Below are positions 755 to 62,608 of a stretch of DNA of 64,000 nt, one piece after another. The notes below the pieces were generated by a model that had not been told where the DNA came from, did no database searches, and was given only the letters and a program-made list of their open reading frames with translations. The position numbers and the translations under genes are program-made. Each line of letters begins with the position of its first letter. Position 1 is the first letter of the stretch. The DNA comes from Nannobrachium achirus (Eukaryota; Chordata; Actinopteri; Myctophiformes; Myctophidae), in contig OY997649.1 in the NCBI GenBank assembly GCA_963921795.1, forward strand, positions 34,150,757 to 34,214,756, in the 5' to 3' direction.

Positions 755-801
755 GCAGATCTACAGGCTCACTACACAACACTGTGAGGTTGTAGATTGG
801 C
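755..801. repeat. palindrome-centred hairpin element, copy 1
   Basis: GCAGATCTACAGGCTCAC at the left and its inverted partner ending ATTGGC at the right; TA on both sides (753-754, 802-803). The flanks outside TA are inverted to each other at 7 of 10 positions. Confidence 0.75.
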
Positions 802-1326: not shown

Positions 1327-1378
1327 GCTGATCTACAAGCTCACAACGCGGCGACACATTGTGAGCTTGTAGTTCTGT
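1327..1378. repeat. palindrome-centred hairpin element, copy 2
   Basis: GCTGATCTACAAGCTCACAA and TTGTGAGCTTGTAGTTCTGT arms; TA at 1325-1326 and 1379-1380. Flanks GCACTGAAAA and TTGTTGGTGC are inverted at 7 of 10 positions. Confidence 0.78.
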
Positions 1379-2250: not shown

Positions 2251-16393
<14,143 letters not shown>

Positions 16394-22864: not shown

Positions 22865-25800
22865 TCAGTTCTTCAGCACTGCTTCATAGCTCTGGAACAC
22901 ACACTGGGATACCTCTGGAGCTCTGCATTTCAGAGACACCTGTGAACGGAGAGAAGAGACGGGAGGGTCATGCTGTGTATGGGAAGGTAGACATAATATA
23001 GAATTTTAATGAGCGAGTTATTGTAGATGTAGTTTAGTGGGGATGCCTGAGAAAGTAAAGTACAGTACACTTAAGGGACAGAAGATAGCACTTTTTTTTG
23101 CCTTGATTTCATGTTAATCTCTGATGGTGCATGAGAAGTGGAGCAGAATCGAATTTGTCATTGACAAGATCAAGGATACAGATTTCTTTTTAGCACAACC
23201 AAAGCATTATTTTTCTAATAAACCTCCCTAATATATATCCATTCCATCCTTTATTTCATTACACACAAACATTACATTTCAAGAAAAACAGGAATAAGGT
23301 TAAAAAATAACAGTGAAAATCCACCCAGTTATTGAATTCTACTAGCTACAGGCACCTTTTATGTTACTCTCAACTGGGAGCAGCTTCGGGATCTGATAAA
23401 TCCTCAAAAAGGATTTTCAAGTAGTGCTACTGAAGAAGCCACTATTTCTGAGTGCCTCTATTTTTACAAGAAATGCATAAGCCTTGCAATTACAGTATAT
23501 GGTAGCAGGATTAGACTCAAGCCATTCTCTAAATGCTTCACTCAACTAACTATGGCCTGGGGGGTCCATTATCCATCAGTCAGTCAGTCAGTCTGACTGC
23601 TGAGGAGTTGGACAAAATTAATTCAACATCACAGCAAGACCATGGCTATCCTCAAAAAGCACTGTTCAACAGATACAGTTGAACAATGCCACATTTGCCA
23701 CAAGGTTGAGGATCTTGTGCAGCTCCTTGCATGTTGACTCAATTAACTCAGGTCTCTTTACTAACGCATGCTAAGTGTTGATTTTGACCAGCACCTATAC
23801 CCAATTTTAGTTGATCTTAAATATTTAACAAATTAATAGGTCACTAGGTTAAAGTTATAGATTTGTCAAGCATGAAATGGGCACACCATAGGTAGGTTAG
23901 CAAAACAGGGCTTGCCCTACATTATTAAACCATCGCTTAAATGTGTTGCCTAAAAATCCAAAGTCTGCCATCTATAGACAGAGAGGTACGAATGGCAAAC
24001 GGCATGGCGACAAAGGGGTGTCCATATTGGTGTTGAAAATGCATCACTTAGGCACAAACACTTGCAATTATAAACTGGGGAGGTGGGATGGGGTAAATCA
24101 ACTAATACCATTGGTCACATTGTTGCCATAGGGACAGGGGATGAGAGATGAGGACACTCCGCTGTACTTGAAAATAGGTAGATACAAATAGTGAGGCATC
24201 ATGAGCTGAAGCCAAATTAAACTGTGTGATCTCAGAGAATTAGGCCAAGACATGCTTGAGCCTCAAAAAAGAAAAAAAGAAAAGAAAAAAGATAGGTCAG
24301 CGAAAAAGCAAACACCATACAAGTTAATATACTCCCCCAGCTCAAGATAAACTTGACAGTCTGTTCTAAACACAAAGACAAACTTTCACAGGTCAGAGAA
24401 AATCCAGGAATCATGAAATGGCAGGGTTTTACTTCTTCAGCCCTAAAGATAGCTTGTGTCAACGAGAGGCCATGGGCAGCTTGGTTTTCATGTGCTGTGC
24501 CAACAGACAGGAATGGGGCCATGCAGCAGACAGAAGCACAGGGCGGCGATAAGCAGACGAGTGCACGTTGCACATGCAAGTCTACAAATACAAGTTATGA
24601 TGGTATCCACTAGTTAATTAGGATGAGCTTCTCAGGTCCATTAAGGAAGACATTTTATTAAATAAGACCAGAGAAGAGAAAGTTAAAAGAAAGAAAAATA
24701 TTGAATTAAGGACTAAAAGATGTTGACAAAATAAAAACCAACCTCCATGTCCTGAATAAACGAAGAAACACCACAAATGGAGGCAGACGAAAAAATAAAT
24801 AAATAAATAAAAAAGATCAAGGACATGAAAATCAAAAGAACAAGAACAGAAAATCAAAGACAAACCACACTCACTAAATCTTAATTATATAAGCCAAATT
24901 CTGACTTACCTCCAGGGCAATAGACTAATCATCGATTTGTCATAATTATACTGTATTAGGACTAGTCACCTAATGATTCACAACTAAACTGAGAATGTCA
25001 ATTTATATTTATAAGCATGTTGACTAGGGACGACCAATTGACAAAATTAAGTAGCTGAGGATACTAAAATACATTAAATTCCACACTATATGAATACAAA
25101 CAAGCAGACTGAGTAACAAGCTGGGAGGAGAGTTACACCAAGGTCAACACTGTGGACCAGACGTTCAGAAATTCTAAGATACACAATCCATAATGGATGG
25201 AGAGTAGCCAGGCTTTTTCCTGGCTCAGAATGGGCCTTTGGGGGATGACAATGCAAAACAGTAACCATGAACATGGCCCATGTCGCCACTATACTAGGGA
25301 TGGGACAATAAGCGATATTATCGTATATCGTGATTAAAAAACACTCGGGAGAATCTAATTGTGGAGATTTAATTTATCGTTATATCGTCCTCCGTCATGC
25401 ACTGGGATCAATTCACCTTTTATTTACCGAGCTGCATAGCCGGTACCACTTAAACCCTTTAGAATTGGTCAAAATGACCTGTAAATAACATAATTGATAG
25501 AGCCTTTTTTTCACTCTCTATCAAATGTCTTTGTCAAAAAATAGCCGATCTACAAGCTCCCGGCGCGTCGCGAGCTTGTAGATCTGCGATTTACGATATC
25601 GTAAATCGTGATTTCTTTTGTCACAATCATCGTGATATGACATTTTCATATCGTCCCATTCCTACCTATACACAACAGTGTTGGCTTATTTGACAGAAAT
25701 CTATGCATTTTCCTGTTCTTACTCATCACCAGTAAGACTCCCTAATCGGGAGATAATCGACCTACGGTCGCTTATCTCCACAAATAGGGCAAAAATGGGT

Positions 25801-28800
25801 TTTTCCAAAATCTTCCTGATCCATGTTGATGACATGAGTGTAGACATGCTGTGTAGTGATTTCCGTGATTTTAGGGCAAAATCTGTAGGAGCAGTGTCCA
25901 AAAATGTGTTTTTAAAAATCAGCCTGAAGGTGGCGCTATATGGGACAGATTCATGTTGATGGGATGAGTGTAGACATACTGTGTAGCGATTTGCGTGATT
26001 TTAGGGCAAAAACTGTAGGAGCAGTGTCCAAAAATGTGTTTTAAAAATCGGCCTGCAGGTGGCGCTAGAAGAGGGCCATGTGAGAAATGAGGGGTGGGGT
26101 CTCCGCGTTGCCTTGGCGGACGAATAGGTACCGGCCCCGGCTCTCCCGGACGCTCCTAGCCCGAGTTACGGCATTTTATGTGAGCTGCAGTGGAGGGTGT
26201 CCTCCACTGGGGGCGCCACCACTTTTGCATCCGTTCTGGAGCACCAGGAGTGGGTGGTCCCCAGGAATTCCCCGTGAGCAGCCCCGTTGGGGTGGTCATT
26301 TGGTCATTTTTGCACATGTGGTCATTTTTTACACCTGGGGGTCCCCCAGGGACCTGGGGGTCCCTGGAGCTCCGGGGGTCCTTGGAGGTTGTAGTTTGCC
26401 AGGTAACCCCAGGGCTCCACTGGCTGCGTCGCGTTGCTCTGCGTCTTGACGGCGTCATTGACGCAGACACGTTGCCGTCCGACTGGCTCCACTGAACGTG
26501 AATGTGTTGATATTTCAATCAGGATATTCGCATTATCAACTGTAGTAAAGTGCCGGAAAAAATAGCAGATATACAAGCTCACAACATGTCGAGTTCATGA
26601 ATCTGTCATCATGCTGTTGTGACTGTGTCTGAGCTTGTAGATTGGCTATTTTCGGTACACCAGTCCAGCGCAGCCACGATAATGTATAGCCTAAAATCAG
26701 ACTCAGTCACTCACTGCTGGCCTGTTTTTAGGAGGAAGAATTGAGTAAGTTGTTGCCTGTTGTGAACTTGTGATTAGCCTATATCAAGTGGGAAGACCAC
26801 TGTAATTACATAAAAAAATATGCGAGGAATTTTGGGACATCTAGTCACCCTTGTGAATGACGTGAATGGATATCCAACAGCAGAAAGGCACGTACGGTAT
26901 ATACATTTAATATGCAATGCAATTACATTTAATCATAATTTATACATGACTGGACGTTGTGGACGCCGTCAAAAAATTGAACCGGGGCAATTTTTGAGTT
27001 TGGACGCCGGCACCGGAGCGTCCGACGTTGACATTACCGTCGGCAGTGGAGCTCCCTTCATTGATTAAAACGGGAGCGTTCCCAACGTTGACGTTGACGC
27101 GACGCTCGACGCGCTCGGTGGAGCCGGGGGGTAAGGAGTGTGTGTGCAAAATGTGGCATGGATGGGGGCAACGGTTGTGGAGATATGAGCAGGGCAAAAG
27201 TGTGACGTGTCACTGACGGAGGGACATTTTTTTACACCTGGGGGTCCCCCAGGGACCTGGGGGTCCCTGGAGCTCCGGGGGTCCTTGGAGGTTGTAGTTT
27301 GCCAGGTAAGGAGTGTGTGTGCAAAATATGGCATGGATGGGGGCAACGGTTGTGGAGATATGAGCAGGGCAAAAGTGTGACGTGTGACGTGTCACTGACG
27401 GAGGGACATTTTTTTACACCTGGGGGTCCCCCAGGGACCTGGGGGTCCCTGGAGCTCCGGGGGTCCTTGGAGGTTGTAGTTTGCCAGGTAAGGAGTGTGT
27501 GTGCAAAATGTGGCATGGATGGGGGCAACGGTTGTGGAGATATGAGCAGGGCAAAAGTGTGACGTGTGACGTGTCACTGACGGAGGGACATTTTTTTACA
27601 CCTGGGGGTCCCCCAGGGACCTGGGGGTCCCTGGAGCTCCGGGGGTCCTTGGAGGTTGTAGTTTGGCAGGTAAGGAGTATGTGTGCAAAATTTGGCATGG
27701 ATGGGGGCAACGGTTGTGGAGATATGAGCAGGGCAAAAGTGTGACTGACTCACAGACAGACACGGTGGAGGTTTTGGTAGTAAATGCGACCTACGGTCGC
27801 AATTAGATAAACAAAAATCTATATTATGCTTAAGCAATGAAACATTTCAATTACTCAAGCAAGCATAATATAATGTATTTGTTTTATTGCGACCGTCAGG
27901 TCGCAGTTACTATCACCAGTAAGACTCCCTAATCGGGAGATAAGCGACCGTAGGTCACTTATCTCCACAAATAGAGCAAAAATTTGTTTTTCCAAAATCT
28001 TCCTGAGCATGTTGATGACATGAGTGTAGACATACTGTGTAGTGATTTTCGTGATTTTAGGGCAAAATCTGAATCGGCCTCATGGTGGCGCTAGAGGGCC
28101 ATGTGAGAAATGAGGGGTGGGGTCTCCGCGCCGCCAAGGCGGACGAATAGGTACCGGCCCCGGCTCTCCCGGTCGCTCCTAGCCCGAGTTACGGCATTTT
28201 ATGTGAGCTGCAGTGGCAGGGGGTCCTCCACTGGGGGCGCCACCACTTTTGCATCCGTTCTGGAGCACCAGGAGTGGGTGGTCCCCGGGAATGCCCCGTG
28301 AGCAGCCCCGTTGGGGTGGTCATTTGGTAATTTTTGCACATGTGCTCATTTTTTACACTTGGGGGTCCCCGAGGGAGCTGGGGGTCCCTGGAGCTCCGGG
28401 GGTCCTTGGAGGTTGTAGTTTGGCAGGTAAGGAGTGTGTGTGCAAAATCTGGCATGGATCGGGGCAACGGTTGCGGAGATATGAGCAGGGCAAAAGTGTG
28501 ACGTGTGACGTGTGTGACGGACGGACGGACGGACGGACAGACGGACACCTCGAGCAGCTTTCTGTAGTAAGTGCGACCTACGGTCGCAAAAACCTCCACA
28601 AACTGTGAGTCCGTCCGTCAGTCAGTCCGTCCGTCCGTCCGTCAGTCTGTCTGTCACACGTCACACTTTTGCCCTGCTCATATCTCCGCAACCGTTGCCC
28701 CGATCCATGCCAGATTTTGCACACACACTCCTTGCCTGCCAAACTACACCGACTCCTGGTGCTCCAGAACGGATGCAAAGTGGTGGCGCCCCCAGTGGAG

Positions 28801-31800
28801 GACCCCCTGCCACTGCAGCGCACATAAAATGCCGTAACTCGGGCTAGGAGCGACCGGGAGAGCCGGGGCCGGTACCTATTTGTCCGCCTCGGCGGTGCGG
28901 AGACCCCACCCCTCATTTCTCACATGGCCCTCTTCTAGCGCCACCATGTGGCGGATTCTTGCTAAACACATTTTTGGACACTGCTCCTACAATTTTTGCC
29001 CTAAAATCACTCAAATCGGTACACAGTATGTCTACACTCATGTCATCAACATGGATCTGTCCCATATAGCGCCACCTTCAGGCCGATTTTTTATTTTTGG
29101 ACACTGCTCCTACAATTTTTGCCCTAAAATCACGCAAATCGGTACACAGTATGTCTACACTCATGTCATCAACATGGATCTGTCCCATATAGCGCCACCT
29201 TCAGGCCGATTTTTTCAAACACATTTTTGGACACTGCTCCTACAGATTTTGCCCTAAAATCACACAAATCGGTACACACTATGTCTACACTCAGCGCCAC
29301 CATCAGGCCGATTTTTTTCAACCACATTTTTGGACACTGCTCCTACACATTTTGCCCTAAAATCACGCTGCGACCTGACGGTCGCTTATCTCCCGATTAG
29401 GGAGTCTTACTGGTATTATGGAGAAAAAAAAAAGATTGTTTTCTAGATGATTCAATGGGGGGATTGGAGAGAATTTGATGATGGCTTAATAAAACCTCTT
29501 GGGACAACAAAAATGTCTCTAGGAAAAACCCTGAGTAGCATATTGGCACAACATACACTTCAAGGGACAAGAGACACAAAAATGTACACACGCACTTAAC
29601 ATGTCACAACTACTCAAACCACACAGTCCAATCACTAAGCAATCAACCAGTCCCTCCCCCATCACTACTCCATGCAGCCATGTCTGCACTGGTTTACATT
29701 GGTCATTCAATTGCCACAGGCAAGGTTCATTATGCTCACCGTGTAATTTGGGTTTCCTGCCTGCACCTTCAGCTCAGCCAACACCCAGATGCCATTGGAG
29801 AGCTTCATTGACTGGTACAGCATGTCCTGGCCGTCCACTGTACGTTTGGCGATAGTGAAGATGTTGCTGCCCTGCAGTTTGTTAGAGGCGGCATCTACGA
29901 GAAGGAGTGTTTAGAAACAATACCACTGTATCAGGGCTGTTAGAAGTGCACAGTTTTCCTGTCCATCTCCTTCTCACCCCCCAGAGAGGGGAAAAAAAGC
30001 TATTACTGTCCACTTTTCTCAGAATAAATATTATCATTCTTCAAGACACACACTGTCTGACTCGCTGACTTCTGTCATGGTCTGTGGCTCTGTGATGAAA
30101 CTGACATTGCCAAGGCTGTAGCTTGCCAGGTTGCTGTTCATAAATCATTCATTACATTCAGTGGTGGTGGTCACTTCATCCAGGCTGCCAGCATAGCAAA
30201 GCTATAGGCTCTAATTTGAAATCAACTACCCATCCTAAGCCTTTGTGTCACTACTGTGACAGAATGGGCTTCTAAATCCCTCTCTCTTGTGTTCGCTTGG
30301 AGGAATCAGATCTCTATTAAGCCATTATTAGTAATTCACCCCCAGTAATAGGTGGCACTCAGGCTTGTGTAAAACCAAATTATCACAGGTAAACACAGGT
30401 ATGGTAGACGACGAAGAGTTCTCATCAAATGCAAATTGTTTCATCAGTAAGGGTCAGAGCCTCTGTCAGATAGCCATCTATACAGTATATATAGGGCTGT
30501 CACGATATGACATTTTACATGACGATTAATTGTCACTCAAATAATTGGCGATTAACGATTTAATTGTGTTTTTGTCGTTGATAATTACATTTCTGTTTGG
30601 CTTTTAGGCTTTGAAGTTGTACATGGTAGATATGACACATAACCTAAATATACAAAGAAATTACTGACATATTTGACAACTTACTACTTAAAAAATAACT
30701 TTGATAGTGGAAATAGCCGATCTACAAGCTCACAACGTTGTGAGCTTGTAGATCTGCTATTTCCACTATTTCTGACATTTTTCAACATTCACGATTATGA
30801 CGTTTATGACAAAATAATTGTGATAATGTCAAATAATCACGATTAGACGATTATGTAATAATTGTGACAGCCCTAACTCCTGCACATTCCATATTTTCTG
30901 CATCCTCACCAGAGTTCAGATGACAGTCTTTGATGTGGAACTGGGACTCGTTATCATTAGGAATGTCTTTCCATGTGGCCAGGAACACCTGCCTCTCTGT
31001 GGAAGGGGAGGGACGGACAAAAAAGGTTGTTAGATGGATCAGAAAAATAGCACAAGTAAGATTATATGAGGTAGGGGGAACGGTTGTGTGTGAAGTAGAA
31101 GTAAATCTGGTGCTGAACGTTAGGCTTCCTTGCCACGGTTTTGGCACCGGGAGCATTAGTTTGCAGCCTCTGGCAGCCGTCCTGCTGCTGGCCACATCTG
31201 GAGAATCCATGGGGGGGATATCCACAGACATTTCCCCCAGATTGCATCAAACAGACCGAGGAAACTAGGGGTGGGCGATATGGTGATAAATATCGTTGAG
31301 ACGAGACAATGTCTCCATGATATATACGCCTTTTCAGATACAGTATATCGTATATATCGTGATACAATGGAGGAGCCATGTAAAAAATCCTGTTGAATTG
31401 TTAATAGAGATTCCCTGCAGAATTAATTAAAACCTGCATTTTGGTCTAAATGGTCCGTTACTCCTTTTTATTTGTAGTTTTTGTTACCTTGTAGGTGGTT
31501 GTACTGTTAAGTAACTTGGGAAAATAACCATAAATAAACCAACATTAAAAAATAATCGTGATAAGATAGTGTATCGTGATACAGCTTGGAAAATATTGTT
31601 ATATTTTTCCATATCGCCACCTCTAGAGGAAACCAAACAACAAGGGCACTGCCTTCTGAGCCGAGAGCAAGTGCGTGGTGATGACACGCAGGTGATCACT
31701 CAGAGCTGCAGACACCATAACGTCTGCATCGCACGCACGTGCTATCATAATAAAGTGCACAGGTGGAGGGCAACTCAATAGACTGACGTAAGTGTTGTGT

Positions 31801-41200: not shown

Positions 41201-44200
41201 TGAGTTAGCTTTGAAACCTTGCATAGAAGGCCTAAAAAACACCACAATATATGAAGTGGGGGTCCCTTCTTCCTCTCTGTCTTGTAGCTAAGGTGTTCTT
41301 TGCCTGAAAAACAGTGAAGGTCCCTGCTATAGTTTGTATGCTGACTAGCAAGGGTCTAACTGTCTCGCACTTTAGTAAACAGAAGATACATTTTCAGGTC
41401 AGGGTACAAATTTCATCCAATTATGATAATAAATGAATTAACTGTTGATTATTAATTTCAAAAAGCTCTCAAAACTGAGAGATGCTCTGGTTTTCTCCAC
41501 TCTTATTGCCAAGCAGTTATCCAGTTTGTGGATAGGTTCAGGGGTTAAGGATCTAGGAGGGCAGTTAGCCAAAGAGAAGTTGGATACTGGCACCGATTCT
41601 GGAGCCCTGACATTTTCTTTTTCTGTCCTTTTGACCCTTCCTGCCGCCTGGCTGCCAAATGAGCAGCATACATACATATTTAAATTGAGTCTTCCCATTG
41701 ATATTCCTTCAGGGTCAACTTCATAGTGTACAGGGGCGTGAGCATTTACACAGTGTGCCGCAAAACAAAATACACATTCACTTTCACTTACACTACACAA
41801 TAGTCTTCAGCATGAAATGCAGCCTCTGTAACACTGAGTTAAACAACTATTGGTGGTGTAATGAGATGTGTTCCCCCACTTACAGTATATGCTAAGCTCA
41901 CTGTCTGCAACCCATGTCTGTCTGCCAGACCCTGAAGGCAGAACAGGCAAGCAATGTTGAAACCAACGATGCCAGCTACGTGTGCTGTGTTCTTGATCTA
42001 AATTGTCAATGCTATAATACTATTTGAAAACCATACCAATATTGAAACCAACAGGCCAATATAGACAGACCAATACATCAGATTCTGTGACAATATTCCC
42101 TGACAGCCCCAAAAAAGGTAAAATCAATATTTAACAATAGTATGATTTGAAAGTTTTCTGTCATTTACTCGAAATGCACTCCTCTTGGGTTATCGCGCCT
42201 CCTAGCGTGCGATACAGAGCTACACATATGCTCCCGAATGACACAGTCGGAGGGTATGCCAGTCAAACGCCCCGCCCCACCCGTGGGCATAAGGCGCGAG
42301 ACTGGCATGTGTACTTCCTCTTCCGTTCCTCTGCACGCATGAGATACGGACGTCTACACATGTTACTCTACGACAATTAATTAATTCTTCAAGTTACTCA
42401 GTATAAGACCAGTTCGAATTCAACTTTAGCCTTAGCGGTGAGTAGGACCATCACCCACGGGTTTCGTTCAACTTGGTCTGTTCTTCTCTGTTTTGTTCTT
42501 CGCTGTTTGCTGCTAACGATAACAAGCGGCTAGCCTAGGTTAGCTTAGCTTACCTTCGTCATGTCTAGCGAGGGTCTGTTTTCACCACCCCTCCCTCGAC
42601 GCTGCGGGGATCCGGAGTGCAGCCGCTTTATCGCCGCTGAGGACCCGCATTCCATCTGCCTGGGCTGTCTGGAGCTACAACACGCTTGGCAAGGTTTCTA
42701 CTTCCCAAACAGCTGCGTGTTCTGCGCGACGATGGACGCGGCCGTTCTTCACCAGCGTCTGCTGGTGGTCATGAACATGGACGCTGCAAGGCCCAAACAA
42801 AGCCACGTCGCTCGGGGAGCTCAGATGGAACACGGCGCTCAGATCCCCGCCACGCCAGGACAAAGAAGCGGGCCTGTTTCCAGCACCGCAGCAAGGTTTG
42901 TCCAGGCGGCTCCTAGTGTTTGCGAACCTATCCGCAGTAGCTTCTCTCCGATGTACACTATTTCTACCACAGCGCACAGTGGTGGGACCGGCATGTTCGG
43001 CTCTACCCCGCGCTTCTCCTTCACGCCCGGTCCTGGTTTGTCCAGCACCGGGCCTCTCCAGGCCTCCGCCGCCCTGCAGGCTAGCCTCCAGGGACCACTC
43101 CAGGCGGGGCCATTGTCTCCGGTCGCCGCCGAGGCGGCCACCAGTGGGACTCCTCACCCCACCAACCCGTTCCTGATGACTCCAGCGGTCACCGCCCCCC
43201 CCTCTTTCCCCCCTCTCTTAACGTCCCAACAGAACGTGCCACGTAAAGTGCCTCGTGGCTCGGACGAGTTTGGCACCTCCGAGGAGGAGGAAGATGCCAT
43301 GGAAGGAGAAGAGGAGGAAGATGAAGAGGAGGAGGAGGAGGACGGTTTGGTTCAAGAGGAGACAAGTGAGGACATTGTGACAAGTGAGGACATTGTGATG
43401 CTAAGCCCCCGTCATGGCGGCACCCCGCGCACCTCACCCCAAGCCCCCCCCATCGCCCCTGCCAAGAAGGCAGCGGTGGATAAGGAGAAGGTGGGCGCCA
43501 CAGCAGAATCCACCCCACAAGAACTGGACCTGCTGGCAGTGGTTGAGCTGGCGGTGGCCAAGATGGGCCTCACTATGCCAGTGGAGCCTCGCCCTGCGAG
43601 CTCAACGGAGATCAAGTTTGCGGGCAAGAGAGAGGTACAGACACCAGTCCCTCGCTCTCAGAAGCTACCCGCTACCCCGGGGCTCAAAGAAGCTCTCCAT
43701 TCCACATGGAAAGAACACAGAGAGCCCGGGAAGATGGCTCTGTCAACCTCACTGGCGGATGAGGACAAGTTTGGCGTGGGCGGCCTTCCCCCTGTGGATG
43801 TCGCCACTAATCAGTTCTTCTGTGCCCAGTTTAAACCCACGGAATGCCCCTTCACTCAGGAGCCTGTGCCCAAGTTCAAGAACAAGGACGAGAACAAGGT
43901 CTCCAACATGGTAAAAAATGTTTATAAAGCTGCAGGGCTCTCTGTGAAAAGTTTAAACGTGGTGGGGCTGATGAATGGAGCCATGGCAGAGATGCTGCTC
44001 CAAAACAAGGACCGCCTCCCTCCTGAAGCCTATGCTGAATGGGATGCCATGCTACAGCTGGCAATAGTGAGCAACGTCCATGCCATCCAATGGGCTGGCA
44101 GAGGTATGGATGTCGCTGTCAGCATGGAGAGGTTCAGGTGGCTGCAGAAAGTCCCCTTCCAAGGCGACGAATCAAAGGCCAGCGAGAGGCGAGAGGAGCT

Positions 44201-47200
44201 GAGGGGCCTGGACACAGCCCCCAACAGTCTCTTCGAGGGAGCGTTACCCTTCCTCCGTGTCATCACCGACACCAATAAAGCCCAAAAAGAAGTGGTGGAT
44301 GCTGTTTTGGGTAAACCTGATAAAGGGAAAGAACAGTCAGGTTACTCAGGACGCTCTTCCCGTAATAGGGAGAGATATCAGGGACCCCCCCGACAGGGCG
44401 GGAAACCCCATCGTTCTCCTAGAGCTCCGTCTTCCTCCTCGGGCACGAGCAGAAACAGAAGTCAGAGCAACCAGGGCTCCCAGCACCAGGAGATGCGCCC
44501 ACCAGCTCGCCCTTCATACAGCGCAGCAGTGAGGGGGCGTGGGAGAGGGTCGAGAAAATGACACTTTGAGAAAGAGGGCCTTCTCACCCTCGGCGCACGG
44601 AGACAGGGTCATGGACGGCTCTCCAGCGCGCAAGCACAGTGCACTTTTGATCCTGCCACCCAGGGTGGAGGAATTCAATGTAAATGTGAGTTTTGTTACT
44701 GTGCCAAATGTTTTCTCCCCAGTAAAGATTGTGTCTGCGAAACAAGGTCTCTTCTTTCACAATGCACACACAATGGAGAATCCCCAGTGGGGACATCCAT
44801 ATATAAAATATGCATGCCCAGTACCACAATCACAAACACAAACAGCCTTCAAGGAAACCCCCTTAAGGGGCATTTCCAATATAAAAGGTTTAATTGTTCC
44901 ACAGCCTCAATCCTCCCTTCCGACACGAGAGGGCGCCAAAGCGCCAGTCAAGGTAAGAAGGTGGCAGAGAGGTCCTTCTTGTTTAGCTGTCCCAGCCAGA
45001 GCTGCGGCAGCAGTATTAAACAGGGTTTTAGACAGGACGTGTTTACAAGAATGCGTTCCTTTTTACACTCCTCCTCTGCCTCCTGTCCCACCGTGCAACA
45101 AAGTGTTGTCGCCGGTGATAAAGGCATTAAACGTAAGGCCCTCGCGTCACAGCAAGACGGTGTCACGCTCAGTAGTAAGTCACGTGACTCAGTCTCGAGT
45201 CCCTTTGACTTCCGCGTTACCGGTGACGTCAGAGTCGTGTCCGGGGATGCACATACCGTGCATTCCTGTCAATCACATTCCGTTAGGTCTGACGTCAGCT
45301 CCCATTCAGAATCCTTTGTCAAGGCATTTAACTCAATGGAAAGCATGCAAGCCGTGTCCCTGGGTGCTTCGCACCGTGAGGCAGGGATACAGGCTACAAT
45401 TCTCAACCCAGCCTCCCTTGTCAGACAGAGTGATATTCACGCATGCAAAGGGGCAGGCCGCTTTGATTCTGAGGGAGGAGATTCACTCTTTATTGGGGAA
45501 AGGAGCGATCAGGGAAATTTCCACAGATCAGCTCGGTCTGGGGTTTTATTCTCATTATTTCGTTGTGCCAAAGAAAGGGGGGGGGCTGAGGCCCATTCTG
45601 GACCTAAAAGCCCTCAACAATTTTCTGGTAAAGTACAGTTTCAAAATGTTGACGAACGTAGCGCTATTGCGCTCGATCAGAATCAACGATTATTGGACGT
45701 CCCTCGATTTGAAGGACGCGTACCAGCATGTGGGAATTTACCCCCCACACAGAAAATTCCTGAGGTTCGGTTTCGAGGGGAAAGTGTACGAATACACTGT
45801 TCTCCCGTTCGGCCTCTCTCTGTCTCCCCGCGTGTTTGTCAAAGTGACACAAGCGGCTATAGCTCCCCTGCGGCAGCAGGGAATCCGACTTGCGACGTAC
45901 CTGGACGATTGGTTAATAAGCGCAAGTTCAAGAGAGGAGGTGACACGTCTCACCAATGTGGTGATGTCGCAGTTAACCTCTCTGGGGTTCAACATAAACT
46001 TCAAAAAGAGTATGTTAACACCAGCTCAGCAGACCACCTTTTTGGGGATCTCGCTGGACTCAATAAATATGACGGCTCGACTCTCACAGGAGCGATTAGT
46101 CAAGATCGTGGCCTGCGCGAAGTCTTTTCGCGTGGGCAGAGTGGTCACGTACAAGCGCTGCATGATTATGTCAGGGCTGATGGCCTCAACTATCCATCTA
46201 CTCAGGCTGGGCAGGCTGTATATGAGGCCTTTTCAAAAGTGGATGTTGGCACTCAAAATCCACTCGACACAAGGTCGCCGCAAGGTCAAGGTGTCCCCAG
46301 GGTGTGTGTACACACTGAGACCGTGGGTGGACGTGACTCTTCTGTCCCAGGGGGTCAGTATGGGCGTGGTGGTGTCACGGAAAGTGATCACAACGGACGC
46401 CAGCCTCAGTGGTTGGGGCGCAACGCACGAGGGCCGTTCGGTGAGGGGAGTTTGGGACTCCGCTCTACAGAAGCGGCACATCAATTTCCTGGAATTAAAG
46501 GCAGTGTTTCTGGCGTTGAAACATTTTTTGCCTTTTGTGGAAGGGTGTCACGTGTTGATCAGGACGGACAACACGACGACCATGTGCTATATCAACAAGC
46601 AGGGGGGCCTCTCCTCCCCGGCTCTCAATCAGCTGGCGCGGGATCTGACGCTGTGGTGGGAACCACGTTTGGCGTCGATCAAGGCGTCGCACATTCCGGG
46701 GCTTCTGAACAGCGGAGCAGATCTGCTGTCCAGGGGGGAGCCCCTTTATGCAAATTGGTCCCTCCACCCGGGAGTGGTGAGACAGATTTGGAGCAGGTTC
46801 GGTCAGCCTCAAGTCGACTTGTTCGCGTCAGCAGAGAACGCGAAGTGTACACTTTTCTTCTCTGCGACGGGGCCAGCCCCACTGGGGCTGGATGCTCTGG
46901 CTCACGACTGGCCGAGGGAACTGCTGTACGCGTTTCCTCCGTTGGAACTGATCCCCCAGACTTTGGAGAGGGTCAGGCGGTTCGGCCTCAAACTATTGTT
47001 GGTGGCTCCGGGGTGGGGCGTGTGGAGGTCGGAGATATCTCCCCTCCTTTACGGCAACCCGTGGCCTCTGCCGCCAATCAGAGATCTGCTACGGCAGGCA
47101 GGGCAGGAGATCTTCCATCCCGACCCGGCGAAGCTAGACCTTCAGGTTTGGCCCGTGAAGGGGAGTCTTTGAGCGCTTTGGGTCTGACACCAGGGGCGGT

Positions 47201-50200
47201 TCAGACTATTCAAAGTGCTAGGGCTTCGTCCACGCGGTCGGCTTATGATAAGAGGTGGAGGATCTTTGAAGACTGGTGTGCGGAGCGTACGTCACCGGTG
47301 GTGGCGTTTGAGGCTCCGGTCCAGCTTGTTGTGAATTTCCTTCAAGAAAAGTTAGAAAGTGGTCTTGCCTTTTCTACCATTAAAGGTTACTTGGCGGCGC
47401 TGTCAGCGTGCCATGTGGGCTTTGAGGGTAAGACGGTGGGTAGGCACCGTCTGGTGGCTCGGTTTTTAGCGGGTGTGCACCAGCTTAAACCGGTTACTAG
47501 GTCCCTTTTCCCATCGTGGGATTTGGGTGTGGTGTTGGACGGGCTGTGCCGTCCACCGTTTGAGCCTCTGGAGGCGGCGAGCTTAAAGCTTTTGAGTTTT
47601 AAGACTAGTCTTTTGTTGGCTTTGTCTACAGCCAAAAGAGTCAGTGATCTACATGCGTTATCGGTGGACCCGGTGTGCATGAGATTCTGTGAGGATGGCA
47701 AGAAGGTTCTGCTAAAACCCCATTTGGCGTTTGTCCCAAAGAACCGTGTGATTATACATGAGCCAACTGAGTTGGTGGCTTTTCATCCTCCTCCGTTTTC
47801 TTCGGAGGAGGATAGGCGTCTACATTGTCTTTGTCCGGTAAGATCCTTGAGGATTTACTGTGAGAAGACGAGGGCTATTAGAGCGTCAAACCAACTGTTT
47901 GTCACTTTTAAAAGTGGTCCTAGACGGAAAGCGGTGGCTAAAGCTTCACTTTCAAGGTGGATTGTGCAGGCCATAAAGATGGCCTACACTTGTGCTAAAG
48001 TCCCGGTTCCTGAGGGCCTAAGGGCTCATGACACTAGGGGAATGTCGACCTCCTGGGCTCTAGCCAGGGGTGTCTCGATCCAAGAGATCTGTTCGGCGGC
48101 TAACTGGTCGACTCCGTCGACTTTTGTGGTTTTTTACCATTTGGACGTGGCTCCATCTTCATTGGCGCATTCGGTCCTGGGTGTTGCCGCCTCCTCTAGT
48201 TAAAGATTTTTTTTTCCCCCTTTTTTATAGCTGAGACCAAGTCCCTTTGCTCTCGGTAAAAGGGGGAGACCCTGTTTCCTTATAAAACGGCTGCTAGTGG
48301 GCCTATTAGTGAATAGGCGGGCTCCAGCCTGTCAGGGTTTTATGAGGCGGACCTGGTCGGCCTATTAGTTCATGAGGCGGATTTCGGTCTGTCAGGGTCT
48401 TTCTACTTTCTTCCGCTCTCGAGTCCGGTGGGCTCGGGGCTCCGTGGGGGAGGGGCCACGCCGGGGGTGTGGTCTCCTGTCAGGCGGAGCGGGCGGATTT
48501 TGAGGGTGTGCGCTTCCGGGGGTTTATGTGACCCAAGAGGAGTGCATTTCGAGTAAATGACAGAAAACGAAAGGTTTCGTACGAAACCATGGTTTTCTTA
48601 GTTTAGGAGAAATGCACTCCTCAAACGCCCCTTCGCGCGCATGTTGCGTGCAGAGGAACGGTGTTGTTAAGAGGAAGTACACATGCCAGTCTCGCGCCTT
48701 ATGCCCACGGGTGGGGCGGGGCGTTTGACTGGCATACCCTCCGACTGTGTCATTCGGGAGCATATGTGTAGCTCTGTATCGCACGCTAGGAGGCGCGATA
48801 ACCCAAGAGGAGTGCATTTCTCCTAAACTAAGAAAACCATGGTTTCGTACGAAACCTTTCGCTCTTCATGCTTATACATGATGTGTACAGGTAGGTAAAT
48901 CCAACATTTAATTATGTAGAAGGCATTGCTAAATTCGATAGATCACAGGCAACACTGGAAAACATCTCCATAATGGGAAATGGGGCGGATCTTTCCGAAC
49001 TAGTTCGGAAAGTCAGGACATCTGGCGGTTCAGGAGAGAATTTAGATAGACTGCCCAACAGAATTTCTGAATGATGTGAATTTGTAGTTATAACACCTCG
49101 CTTTCCAAAAACTTCAGAAGGAGCGTACAAAATGCCATGAACACCCCAGAGAATTTATAAAAACATGAGCTCATAAACACAAATAGTCTACAGTATATTG
49201 CTTTGACAGGCGATATTGGATGTCTATAAACACGATCTCCTACATTCTTTAACAGCGGTCTGGGCATCTTTTTCCATTAACAGTTAACAGGTGTCTGGGC
49301 ATCTTTTTCCATTTAAAGTTAAACATTTAAGTATTTAAAAACAGGAGGATAATTTTCATAACATTTTGATTTGTAACACCTCTACGTTCCAACAAGTGGT
49401 AAACAATGCAAAACCTATGCTTATAAATATTTGCACTGAAGGTAATTAATTGTAGATCACTTTAGTACTGGTGTGACGGCTTGACCTGCTGTATAATTTA
49501 TTATTTTGCTGGCTTAAGTTGTTTTTAGATCACAAGTGGGGTCCCCAGATGAATAGCTTAATGTAATTTATTTTTCTCACTCAACAGTAAACAAACCAAG
49601 ATACAGTATAAGTGTATACAGGGTATCTGCACATTTATAAAGTGACAATTTAAGGACTTTCAAGACCGTTTTAATACCGAACTGGCCAAACTGTCAAATA
49701 TTAAGTAAGCAAGAGGCGAACATTGTGAAAATAGCTGATCTACATGCTCACAACGCCTCGCACTGCGAGCGTGTAGTTCGGCTATTTTCACAATATTAAT
49801 GTGTGGAACCGAGTCACATTAAATGTAATACCTACAATTACAAATGCTTGTCAGGGTGGGGGTCCACAGTTCAAATGTGTTTATTTTGGGGGTCACGGCC
49901 TAAAAAAGGTTTGAGAACCCCTGTTTTAGATGATCCTTCACCAGGTCTAAAATCTCTTGGATTCTCCCTCCAGGTATTTTGTCAATACTTTGATGGTTAC
50001 ATTGGCCTTTGCTCTGGTAATTCTACAGCACTCCTCTACTCATATTTACATGCCTGAAATGTGAGTCACACTGGGAGTAATTTAGCCTGCCTTTTCATCT
50101 CCGTATACACACGCTGGATGGAGGTGGATCAGAATCAATTTCCTGGAATAGGTGTTACGTCTCAAAATAGCTTAAGTTTAATGGTTTATTCAAGGGATAT

Positions 50201-53200
50201 TATGGGGCTCAGGTCTGATGATCATAGCCATTTTAGCTCCTTATTAGATGGAGTGTAATATGTTTGAACAGCAACAGTGCCTGATGCATAATTTAGGTGT
50301 GTGTGCACATGCGTGTGTACTCACCTGTGTGGCAAGGCTGAGCACCTGCTGCACCAGTTCCTGGGTCTCAGTGGGTTTCTTCAGGAACAGTTTGACTATA
50401 GCAGTCAGCAGTTGCAACTGCACCTGGAGAACCCGACAGACAATACATCACACTTTTTAGGTTACAGGTATTTTTAACCTTCATGTGAAGTATATTATAG
50501 TGGCATGATTAATTCCTTCTTTTTTTGCCTTTATTGGTGGTATTTAGTGGAGACAGACAGGAAGACAGACAGGAAACAGGCAGTGACACGTAGCAAAGGT
50601 CATCGGTATCAGGATTTGAACTATCAACGCACTGACACTGACAGGCTGCATTAGAGCCTTTATGTGGTATGTCCCTGGACCGCTAAGCCAGCGGGCACCC
50701 CGTGAATTCCCATCTAACAATACTATACAACCTTAATGAATGTAATGTTCTCTAATGAAATGGCACTGTAGTAGCCCTTTGTCTCTCCTGGAAGAATGAA
50801 TGAAAATCACACAAATTTACCTCCAAGGCACAAATATATAACCTAGCTCAACTTGAGCACTACAGGACAGGATAGAATATGGCTTTACAAATGTTGTTAT
50901 TGTTTTATTTAGGGGTCAGTATATTCAACATTATAAGCTTGGGACTTTGCAGAGCATCTGTCTAGTACTGCAGTGCACTACTTCATTTCCCCCGGCATGG
51001 TGCACACTCTACCGATGACATTCGGCAGTTCTTTTTCTTCTTTTTACCAGATCCCAATAGTATCAATGTAGTTGGCCTGCTGCGATGGCCTTGGCCCATT
51101 AGTGCATGGGAAACAGAAGCCAGGTGGAAACTATCCCATTAGCTAGGTCAGCCATTTGAGCTCCAAAACTCTGTAGGGTGTTCTATTAAATGAACGGTGG
51201 GCACAGGCCAACTGCAGAGGCGTCAAATGCATGAAAAACAAAAAGCCTCCATAACTAGTTAAAAAGGACTAGATGGGGGACTGGACTATGTATATATGTA
51301 CAAGTTTCCCCCTATTGTCTTTCATTACAATTTCCTCAATTAAAAAAGGTTAGCACTCTACCCTGCATAAAAGAACAGTGCCAAGGGCAACAAAATATGA
51401 CACCGTTTACAAATCAAATCCTCCCAAGTACCAAGTATACAGACAATTATTTTAAGATGGTCCACTCTAGGGATGGGACACTCACGATAATCGTATCGTG
51501 GAGATTTAATTTATCGTGATATCGTCCTCCATCATGCACTGGGATCAATTCACCTTTTATTTGCCGAGCAGCATATCTGGTACCACTTAAACCCTCTATA
51601 ATTGGTAAAAGGTACTTATAATATACGTACTTGATAGTCTTTTTTTCACTCTCTATCAAATGTCTTTGCCAAAAAATTGCCGATCTACAAGCTCACAGCT
51701 TGTAGATCTGCTATTTTTTGGCAAATGTTTCGCCCGAGGATAATGGATTTTGATTATCGCGATAATATCGTAATTCGCCATTTCTTTTGTCACAATAATC
51801 GTGATATGAAATGTTCATATCGTCCCATCCCTAGTCCACTCTACCCCACCATGCAAACAGACCTGAGTGCTTTCATCATGGAACCCTTCCAGGAAGCTCT
51901 CCAGCAGCTCGTCAGCATTGTCGATACGCTCAGCATACTCCCCCACTATCCAGATCATGGCTGCCCGTGCCTCTGGCTCATCTAGGGAGTCCAGGTTCTC
52001 ACACAGTGTGGCGATCACACTCTCATACCTGTCAACAGTACACACACAGCAAGTTACACATACAGTACATAGTCAGGGTTAATCTAGTATGTCTTGTAAA
52101 ACCCACAGATAGACTTAAAGGATGACTTCACCCATTTTCAACCTCATATAATTGGTCCTCGCAATGCTCATTATAACCCATTTAGGACGGAGGCCAATTC
52201 TAAAAACGCCTTCTAAATCCTGACCTAAGTTTTCTGAAAATGGCATAATGTGTCAAAATTTTTGTCTACTCGGTCTGTGTCTCAGAGACCTTCGACCTGG
52301 TGGAGACATGTGCACCAGGGAGGCATGTGCACCTGGGAGATAAAAACAGTAAAGCGTATGCTGTAGTATAGTAATTTTATGTGAGTTATTTAGTCATATT
52401 TATTTATAATTTCCTGTTCACCTCCATGTGAGAGACCATTCATAGACCATAAAGATCTTACAGGAAAGAGAAGGGGAAGGACAGAATCAAATCATGACCC
52501 ATCATGTGGTCGTATTATCTGGTCAGCTACTGGTGTGCTTTTAATTAATGATTGTCTATGGCCCTCTATAGCAGAAAACACTTATTATTATAACACACTG
52601 ATTATTTACTGTGTCCCATCTCAAAACCAGTACAGTACATGATAATCAGTGAAACAGAAGTCAGTATAACCACATATCAGAACATGGGTCACTTCAAAAT
52701 CAAATGAAGCTCCACTTTATGTCAAACCCTTTACCAACGGAAAATTAAAAGATCTTGCATGCATTATAAATGACAAAGAGTAATGAAATGTAAATGCCCC
52801 AAAACAAACTGAATTGGTCTTCAATCTTGGATAAATTAATATCATCACCGTAGTGAAACTTTCTCCACACAGTCTATTTATTTATTAATTTCTGCATTTA
52901 GCTTAATAAAAAGAAGATCATTCGATCATGACCACTCACCCCCACCCTGTATATAATCAGTCAGCCATGCAGCAGAGGCATTGATAGACAACATACTTGT
53001 TGGGGTACTTGCGGAAGATGTCCTTGATCACCACAATGGCCTCCTGCACCACATAGTTGACCTTAGTCTGGATGAGGTCCAGCAGAGTGCTGACACAGCG
53101 CTCTGCTGATTGCTAATGGACAGAAACAGCAAATACAAACAAAACTGTCAAGATAAATGAGACACCTACACAGCACACAAGCATGATGCTTTTCTTGAAT

Positions 53201-58822: not shown

Positions 58823-59342
58823 CAGTGGTGTAAAGTAACTAAGTAGGCCTACATTTAATCAAGTAGTAAAGTACTGTACTAAAGTTAAGAAATTATTATT
58901 TTTTTACTTTAGTGGAGTATTTCCAAATGTCAGTACTTTTACTCCACTATACCTCAGAGGCAAATACTGTACTTTTACTCCACTACAATTATTTAAAAAC
59001 GTTAGTTACAATATGTTACTTTTTAGATTTTGAATGATTATTATTACAACATATACATTACCCACTTCAGCCCTATTCAGCCATTTGAAAATAGACAATC
59101 TACAAGCTCACAATGCGCACCGTGAGCTTGTAGATCTGCTATTTTCAAAAGATTTTTATACATTTGAAAACTTGAAATGGGACATTCTGCAGAATAAGTA
59201 CTTTTACTTTTGGTACTTTGAGTACATTTTGATGCCAATAGTTTTGTACTAAATATTGAATTCCTGACTTTTAACAGGGTGTAACATGGTGTTTCTACAT
59301 TGTAGTATTGTAGTAAAAATGCAGGTACTTTTCCCACTACTG
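58823..59342. mobile_element. hAT-like MITE in the 5' intron of ap1b1
   Basis: Ends CAGTGGTGTAAAGTAACT and AGGTACTTTTCCCACTACTG, with perfect 8-bp duplications TATAACTG (58815-58822 and 59343-59350). The interior repeats the motif TACTTTTACTCCACT. A hairpin-family copy lies at 59094-59139. Confidence 0.87.
59094..59139. repeat. hairpin element, copy 10
   Basis: GACAATCTACAAGCTCACAA and GTGAGCTTGTAGATCTGC arms, TA on both sides; flanks CATTTGAAAA and TTTTCAAAAG are inverted at 9 of 10 positions. Confidence 0.82.
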
Positions 59343-62447: not shown

Positions 62448-62608
62448 AGTACTGGAAGCAGAAATTGTGAAAATAGCCGATCTACATGCTCACAATAGAA
62501 CCGTGTTATACAAAATTCCTCAACTCTTAGTGCTCGTCAGGGTGCCGGGTCCCCAGTTAAAATATGATTATTTTGGGGGTCACAGCCTGAAAAGGTTGAG
62601 AACCACTG
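62448..62608. mobile_element. partial hAT-like family A copy, nested
   Basis: Matches one half of 7532-7899 in inverse orientation (CCTCAACTCTTAGTGCTCGT, then GGTTGAGAACCACTG). The other half is missing. It contains half of a hairpin element. Confidence 0.65.
62476..62495. repeat. hairpin element, half copy 11
   Basis: GCCGATCTACATGCTCACAA after ATTGTGAAAA-TA, then directly into host-repeat sequence (TAGAACC). The right arm and the right half of the target palindrome are gone, apparently deleted between two TCACAA stretches. Confidence 0.72.

Follow-up and report, generated by a model that had tools for sequence, protein, structure and literature searches.

Tc1/mariner-type MITEs (Stowaway-like) are short, non-autonomous elements with inverted repeats, a TA at both ends and very high copy numbers. 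The hairpin family described here, from Nannobrachium achirus, shares these features and differs in that its stem takes up nearly the whole length of the element and its flanks are mirrored beyond the TA. In Volvox organelle genomes, selfish palindromic repeats are reported to be inserted within one another (PMC2670323). These too are short and numerous hairpins, but they belong to organelle genomes and have differing loop sequences, whereas ours lie inside MITEs in a genome of nuclear size. Sponge mitochondria contain repetitive hairpin-forming elements that are thought to be mobile, with the mechanism of transposition left open by the authors (PMC2800124); they are alike as small, mobile-looking hairpins and differ by their mitochondrial intergenic location. 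Finally, template switching is reported to create and maintain hairpins (PMC8794818). There, as would apply here, a single mutation event gives paired changes in both arms; the description concerns RNA genes and not a mobile repeat family.

We analyzed a window of 64,000 nucleotides (assembly GCA_963921795.1, contig OY997649.1, positions 34,150,757 to 34,214,756 of the forward strand) in which an earlier note had named eleven copies of the hairpin. All 11 were located, and a probable twelfth lies at 4564, with 3 arm mismatches and a TATTTTC flank (Table 1). At ≤3 mismatches the window holds 21 matches to the hairpin arm against 0.82 expected, a number reached in 0 of 100 shuffles. As that note had reported, TA stands on both sides of six copies (755, 1327, 26565, 30716, 49734 and 59094), and the flank matches that it quoted outside the TA were reproduced at 755, 1327, 30716, 49734, 51679 and 59094. 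The left dinucleotide of copy 51679 is TT. Folded as DNA, copy 30716 with its flanks reaches -31.8 kcal/mol (z -13.1). Lengths were measured for seven copies and range from 33 to 82 bp; five do not exceed 49 bp. That range had been offered as the size of the element; it stands as the range seen in the window, but 33 bp is probably not a mobile size. Copies 25544 (44 bp) and 51679 (33 bp) are most simply one insertion, not two, copied within MITE family B, so the shorter length is probably wear.

Table 1. Hairpin copies, carrier MITEs and a hairpin-free site in the window.
Position	Strand	Feature
755..801		Hairpin copy, 47 bp, TA on both sides, arms 7/10
1327..1378		Hairpin copy, 52 bp, TA on both sides, arms 7/10
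4564..4582		Probable right half of a hairpin copy, without left half
7532..7899	-	Complete family-A MITE without hairpin, 8-bp direct repeat CTTTAGAG on both sides
7648..7669		Perfect 22-bp palindrome ATTGTGAAAATATTTTCACAAT with a single TA, hairpin-free family-A site
11536..11594		Worn hairpin copy, left end unrecognisable
14651..14701		Hairpin copy, both ends disturbed, flanks AGTAGTGAAAATA / TTTTCACTAG
25295..25664		Second family-B MITE, with the 44-bp copy; flanking 8-mers similar only
25544..25587		Hairpin copy within a family-B MITE, 44 bp; flanking arm on the right gone through a ~40 bp deletion
26565..26646		Longest window copy, 82 bp, TA on both sides, arms 4/10 (ungapped)
30492..30875		Family-C MITE with the 30716 copy, terminal repeats TAGGGCTGTCAC, flanking 8-mers unmatched
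30716..30757		Hairpin copy, 42 bp, perfect arms (10/10) ATAGTGGAAA/TTTCCACTAT outside TA, in the family-C MITE
49734..49782		Hairpin copy within a family-A MITE, 49 bp, arms 10/10
51468..51833		Family-B MITE with the 33-bp copy, terminal repeats TAGGGATGGGAC, 8-bp duplication GTCCACTC
51679..51711		Hairpin copy within a family-B MITE, 33 bp, shortened at its centre, arms 12/12
58823..59342		Family-D MITE with the 59094 copy, 8-bp duplication TATAACTG
59094..59139		Hairpin copy, 46 bp, arms 9/10, in the family-D MITE
62476..62495	+	Hairpin copy within a family-A MITE, left half only; remainder deleted, apparently at a shared TCACAA

The hairpin is very numerous throughout the genome. Searching the 1.66-Gb genome of the window (564 contigs) with the 16-base arm GATCTACAAGCTCACA at ≤1 mismatch returned 274,643 forward and 273,404 reverse matches, against 4 + 4 for the reversed-pattern control; these counts take in tandem arrays and solo arms, and so are not a count of intact hairpins. 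The earlier description of a very small palindromic repeat, present in great numbers and often flanked by TA, is supported. From each of contigs C1 to C10, two 10-kb regions were taken at preset coordinates, and the twenty together contained 51 hairpins with summed arm mismatches of ≤6 (60 found, minus 9 from eight loci that the search itself had brought in). Another 73 loci were cut from C1 at arrays or at listed exact arm matches, and 21 of these contained no hairpin pair by the pairing rule used. Preset regions, C1 loci and window together gave 123 hairpins, of which 121 had enough flank (2 were dropped). The commonest length was 59 bp (55 of 121 sampled copies), and the element has the form GCNGATCTACAAGCTCACAACGCGTCGC-nnn-mirror, an almost perfect palindrome of ~59 bp with the ends TAGCNGATCTACAAGCTCACA.

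This element is short, lacks coding capacity, has inverted repeats and reaches a high copy number, as MITEs do, and the best reading is that it behaves as a non-autonomous, TA-flanked palindromic MITE. Elements so small fall under the size usually reported by repeat finders. The exact hairpin pattern and the one-arm pattern each had 0 matches in viral and prokaryote collections. Identity with an RNA family was set aside, as Rfam gave no match in the window at gathering score, and Helitron or other 3'-hairpin ends were set aside because both sides of the copies are TA-bounded. Literature searches of open-licence PMC papers found no paper on this hairpin element. Hairpin arms also occur in tandem on C1. 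The array in L076 (G000:C1:3707900-3708800) consists of about a dozen units of ~45 bp, each with one hairpin arm (GATCTACAAGCTCACATCATGTCAGTGTGTGCACATAATCTAGCA), and that in the overlapping loci L006 and L007 of ~31- and ~52-base units, with the arm GATATACAAGCTCACA in each and GCCCTGGTAACTTTA after many.

Grouping the 121 copies by flank similarity (average linkage) yielded 41 contexts, after 30 in an earlier round; two still earlier clusterings (9 and 14 contexts) over-merged, and for positions -9 to -14 their permutation counts were 43 and 210 of 20,000. TA occurs on both sides of 77 of the 121 copies and is the commonest state in 17 of the 41 contexts. The TA would be the one sign of a putative Tc1/mariner membership; to our knowledge, the hairpin ends recall no known Tc1/mariner end, and neither a transposase nor an autonomous copy was seen among the sequences analyzed. 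The single TA at the hairpin-free family-A site would fit a TA duplication, but that site may be a secondary loss. Just outside the dinucleotide, AAA is present at 186 of 242 ends, an AAATA|TATTT neighbourhood that agrees with the AT-rich core claimed for the insertion sites. Five copies with alike flanks have CA on both arms where most have TA, which is a mirrored change. Among 85 copies with GC at both ends, base +3 is A/C in 32, A/A in 29 and C/C in 15, the distribution to be expected were an initially unequal pair occasionally converted into a symmetric one. A fixed mismatch at +3, which held in the eight window copies compared but not genome-wide, was withdrawn as proof against arm homogenisation.

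Mirrored flanks are uncommon at other TA sites. Within the window, 5 of 3,982 single TA sites have at least 9 of 10 mirrored flanking bases, as do 6 of 14,596 TA pairs lying 30-82 bases apart, 3 of which are hairpin copies (51679 was missed in this count through its left TT). When right arms were permuted among the seven scorable window copies, the observed sum was reached in 6 of 5,040 permutations. With 14651 added, the eight copies match at 25 of 32 positions from -9 to -12 against a permuted mean of 11.9 (30 of 40,320 as high), an excess indicating that the mirrored flanks extend past the shared AAAATA core. The same comparison of left with right flanks against permuted partners, which had been proposed as a check, was run on copies from across the genome. 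Over the 41 contexts, agreement at -9 to -14 is 42.5% versus 27.1% permuted (0 of 20,000), and at -15 to -20 there is no excess (30.0 versus 27.5%; 2,411 of 20,000).

Not every context is mirrored to this depth. Keeping contexts with both junctions intact and core matches of at least 4/6 left 19 (70 copies), whose outer positions agree at 54% versus 34% permuted (0 of 20,000). Outer-position matches, scored ungapped, which may understate mirroring, are at least 4/6 in 6 of these contexts, 3 to under 4 in 7 and below 3 in 6. Some contexts look alike, so not all represent independent origins; merged by hand into 13 intact groups, they give 53% versus 32% (0 of 20,000), with 4 of the 13 below 3, and 29 versus 28% at -15 to -20. 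The claim that flanks are mirror images inside a context and differ between contexts is thus upheld, for the merged groups as well. The stronger claim that insertion requires a palindrome fails on the contexts with fewer than 3/6 outer matches, 6 of 19 before merging and 4 of 13 after. Mirrored flanks are real and frequent, yet no rule.

Of the 11 contexts that score best among 30, 9 have mirrored arms that stop after 7-13 bases, and 11 of 300 cross-context pairs score as high. AAATA is conserved as strongly as the element ends, and conservation decays outward from there. We considered a longer element that would have generated a duplication of its own beyond the mirrored arms, and dropped it, as direct repeats there show no clear excess in 11 contexts (shared 3-mers in 5 of 11 versus 23% across contexts; 4-mers in 1 of 11 versus 4.5%). 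Among 61 solo arms (many from one tandem array present in two overlapping loci), we found no common non-palindromic source of half-arms. At L055, ~168-352, two hairpins in inverted order and their spacer lie jointly within mirrored arms close to AACGTCCACACGAAAAATA, and by eye the pair forms a composite inside one palindrome.

Paired change is not confined to the flanks: the two arms also alter together within the element. For 36 of an earlier set of 70 copies, the 53-base core was present and could be aligned without gaps and read as one 44-pair stem. Stem cells are paired in 82.6% of cases, versus 73.8% after shuffling and 30-43% in slid controls. Changes on both sides occur in some sequence at 30 of 44 pairs (shuffled mean 22) and in 177 cells (85 in shuffles); many of the 36 copies are relatives, so that cells are not events, and the shuffles, which ignore relatedness, give no probability. 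By eye, subfamilies marked by CATGC/GCATG, GCACAC/GTGTGC and GACCTCC/GGAGGTC are visible. The earlier note had argued that the flanking arms belong to the target because they differ between copies. Internal pairs also differ between subfamilies in a compensating way, so the difference does not prove that the arms are target.

Several MITE families with unlike terminal repeats carry the hairpin as a passenger. We take these carriers to be hAT-like from their 8-bp repeats and end motifs. An 8-bp duplication with short inverted ends is present in the family-A copy at 7532-7899, the family-B copy at 51468-51833, the family-D copy at 58823-59342, and in L015 and L016; it is absent from the family-C copy and is imperfect in the family-B copy at 25295-25664. 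Further carrier ends beyond the window are CAGGGGTCTTCAAC, CAGTGTTGTAAAAAGT and CAGGGGCGTCACAAGG, and the CAGGGGCGTCACAAGG carrier contains two hairpins. An automatic end search restricted to 8-bp repeats and ends beginning CA or TA placed carriers at 8 of 70 hairpins versus 6 of 140 random places, so that in most carriers the ends are worn, of another type or missing.

One site in family A is found both with and without the hairpin. The MITE at 7532-7899 reads ATTGTGAAAATATTTTCACAAT with one TA, and at the same site 49734 has the hairpin between two TAs. Palindromes of the ATTGTGAAAATATTTTCACAAT type number 111 genome-wide at ≤1 mismatch (control 0). All of twenty exact ones that we fetched align to the window family-A copy over at least 56 bases, and by reading they split 13 / 7 between two family-A subfamilies. 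A tree was built from flanks only for 29 family-A copies, of which 21 are empty and 8 occupied. It requires 6 changes between the two states, 4 of them forced by well-supported branches; occupied L002 joins empty L103 and L113 on short branches (100/98). Shuffled labels give a mean of 7.2 changes, with 81 to 90 of 500 as low, so that the empty/occupied label is hardly clustered on the tree. Under midpoint rooting, occupied 49734, L048 and L052 fall near the root, L048 and L052 on long branches whose place is unsure. The CATGC variant is present in 6 of the 8 occupied copies and CAAGC in L048 and L052.

The tree is compatible with either direction of change and the pattern search could detect precise products only; judged from these sequences, precise loss by deletion between the two TAs appears somewhat more likely than repeated insertion. 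Exact products of GATC-GATC deletion number 315 genome-wide (control 0), and twenty that were fetched belong to several families, 10 being family A by flank reading. No never-occupied site was found in the one empty-site class examined, that of family A, which is intermixed with occupied copies. The window site 7648-7669 had been taken as proof of a palindromic target and was withdrawn as such after the family-A alignment and tree. In L027, 6800-9720, two inverted family-A copies that are 97% alike lie ~2.5 kb apart, each adjoining an apparent second half hairpin.

We tentatively read the observed copy number, palindrome, TA ends, mirrored flanks, internal paired changes, passenger state and deletion products as those of a TA-inserted palindromic MITE that was amplified largely inside hAT-like MITEs and whose arms were made or kept symmetrical by hairpin-templated copying, a reading to which we give a little under an even chance. 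A non-autonomous element of ~59 bp would have entered TA, mostly at AAATATTT-like sites, many times in the past, and the chemistry behind this original spread would be that of a TA transposase. As the occupied sites lay within hAT-like MITEs, many or most copies could then have arisen as passengers, a share that we infer. When a strand folds, one arm may template the other during DNA copying and so introduce changes into both; the stem may lengthen in this way by about ten bases beyond the TA into family-specific flank, which would make templated copying the main source of the mirrored flanks. The same folding may give deletions between short self-complementary words (GATC, AGCT, TA), and some TA deletions, presumably including the one at the family-A empty site, would be precise losses that leave one TA. 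That outer arms are matched in only part of the intact contexts speaks for templated copying. Against it, the arm ends at 7-13 bases are more uniform than random copying suggests, and the conservation of AAATA followed by outward decay is as for a target preference. No family examined caught a flank in the change from non-mirrored to mirrored.

The leading rival reverses the order of events: sites were palindromic beforehand, and the element entered TA at the tip of an extruded palindrome, or cruciform. It explains flanks that are free yet pair most directly, and would account for mirrored arms that differ among 41 contexts without excess beyond -15 and for the AAATATTT core at the sites. The single-TA family-A palindromes, the fetched ones with flanks of two subfamilies, are what it would expect, and the tree is compatible with repeated insertion into empty sites. 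Contexts with weakly matched outer arms are nevertheless unexplained by it alone. In the window, moreover, 1 of 10 unoccupied AAATATTT octamers is palindromic past the core, so that on this account almost all suitable targets would already have to be taken, and the occupied copies near the midpoint root, two of unsure placement, indicate that the empty state may be derived. On balance we regard prior palindromes as rather unlikely, and slightly more doubtful still the specific proposal that integration machinery recognises cruciform or hairpin structure rather than sequence and enters TA at the tip.

The hairpin might instead never have been separately mobile but be an ancient structural component of hAT-like MITEs, passed on with them and maintained by selection; its tip alone would stay conserved while the stem base drifts in paired fashion. 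Changes along the stem are indeed paired, hairpin-bearing families yielded a single clean site lacking the hairpin in 288 kb, and the carriers whose ends are complete belong to one broad type, the type to which the end search was limited. We nonetheless think this improbable: near-identical tips are common to MITE families with unlike terminal repeats, the place of the hairpin within its MITE is variable (left 88-380, right 81-368), two hairpins occur together in one MITE, and about five window copies sit in no recognised MITE. It seems very improbable indeed that the mirrored flanks merely reflect AT-rich sequence together with the AAAATA core common to the copies. The core alone does yield a high cross-context identity (0.475 at -3 to -8), but permuting partners preserves both composition and core, and true partners still agree more often at -9 to -14, which contradicts an artefact, as do the window permutations at -9 to -12.

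What the family would record depends on which of these accounts is correct. If hairpin-templated copying is right, the family, having ~274,000 arms on each strand and numerous diverged subfamilies, would document template switching and palindrome deletion within a single genome, naturally and on a very large scale. Should insertion seek out cruciform tips, the arms would record structural target choice, and a nuclear DNA element would follow a structural target rule. On either reading, such small-element families may be widely missed.

Other features of the window are recorded here in their own right. A Pfam scan of five window ORFs matched one to reverse transcriptase and, below cut-off, to RNase H, and the other four to nothing. 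Positions 42561-48203 hold a retrotransposon with reverse transcriptase (Pfam RVT_1), followed by an inverted repeat at 48568-48861; a further ORF in 42561-48203 resembles a tyrosine recombinase, and we presume the retrotransposon to be DIRS-like. Other ORFs of the window we take to be AP-1 beta-adaptin and a RASL10-like gene. Between 25818 and 29415, tandem repeats of 182 bp and ~123 bp (27130-27745, 28970-29293) are accompanied by related stretches that are also inverted, and a long inverted repeat lies at 28414-28748.
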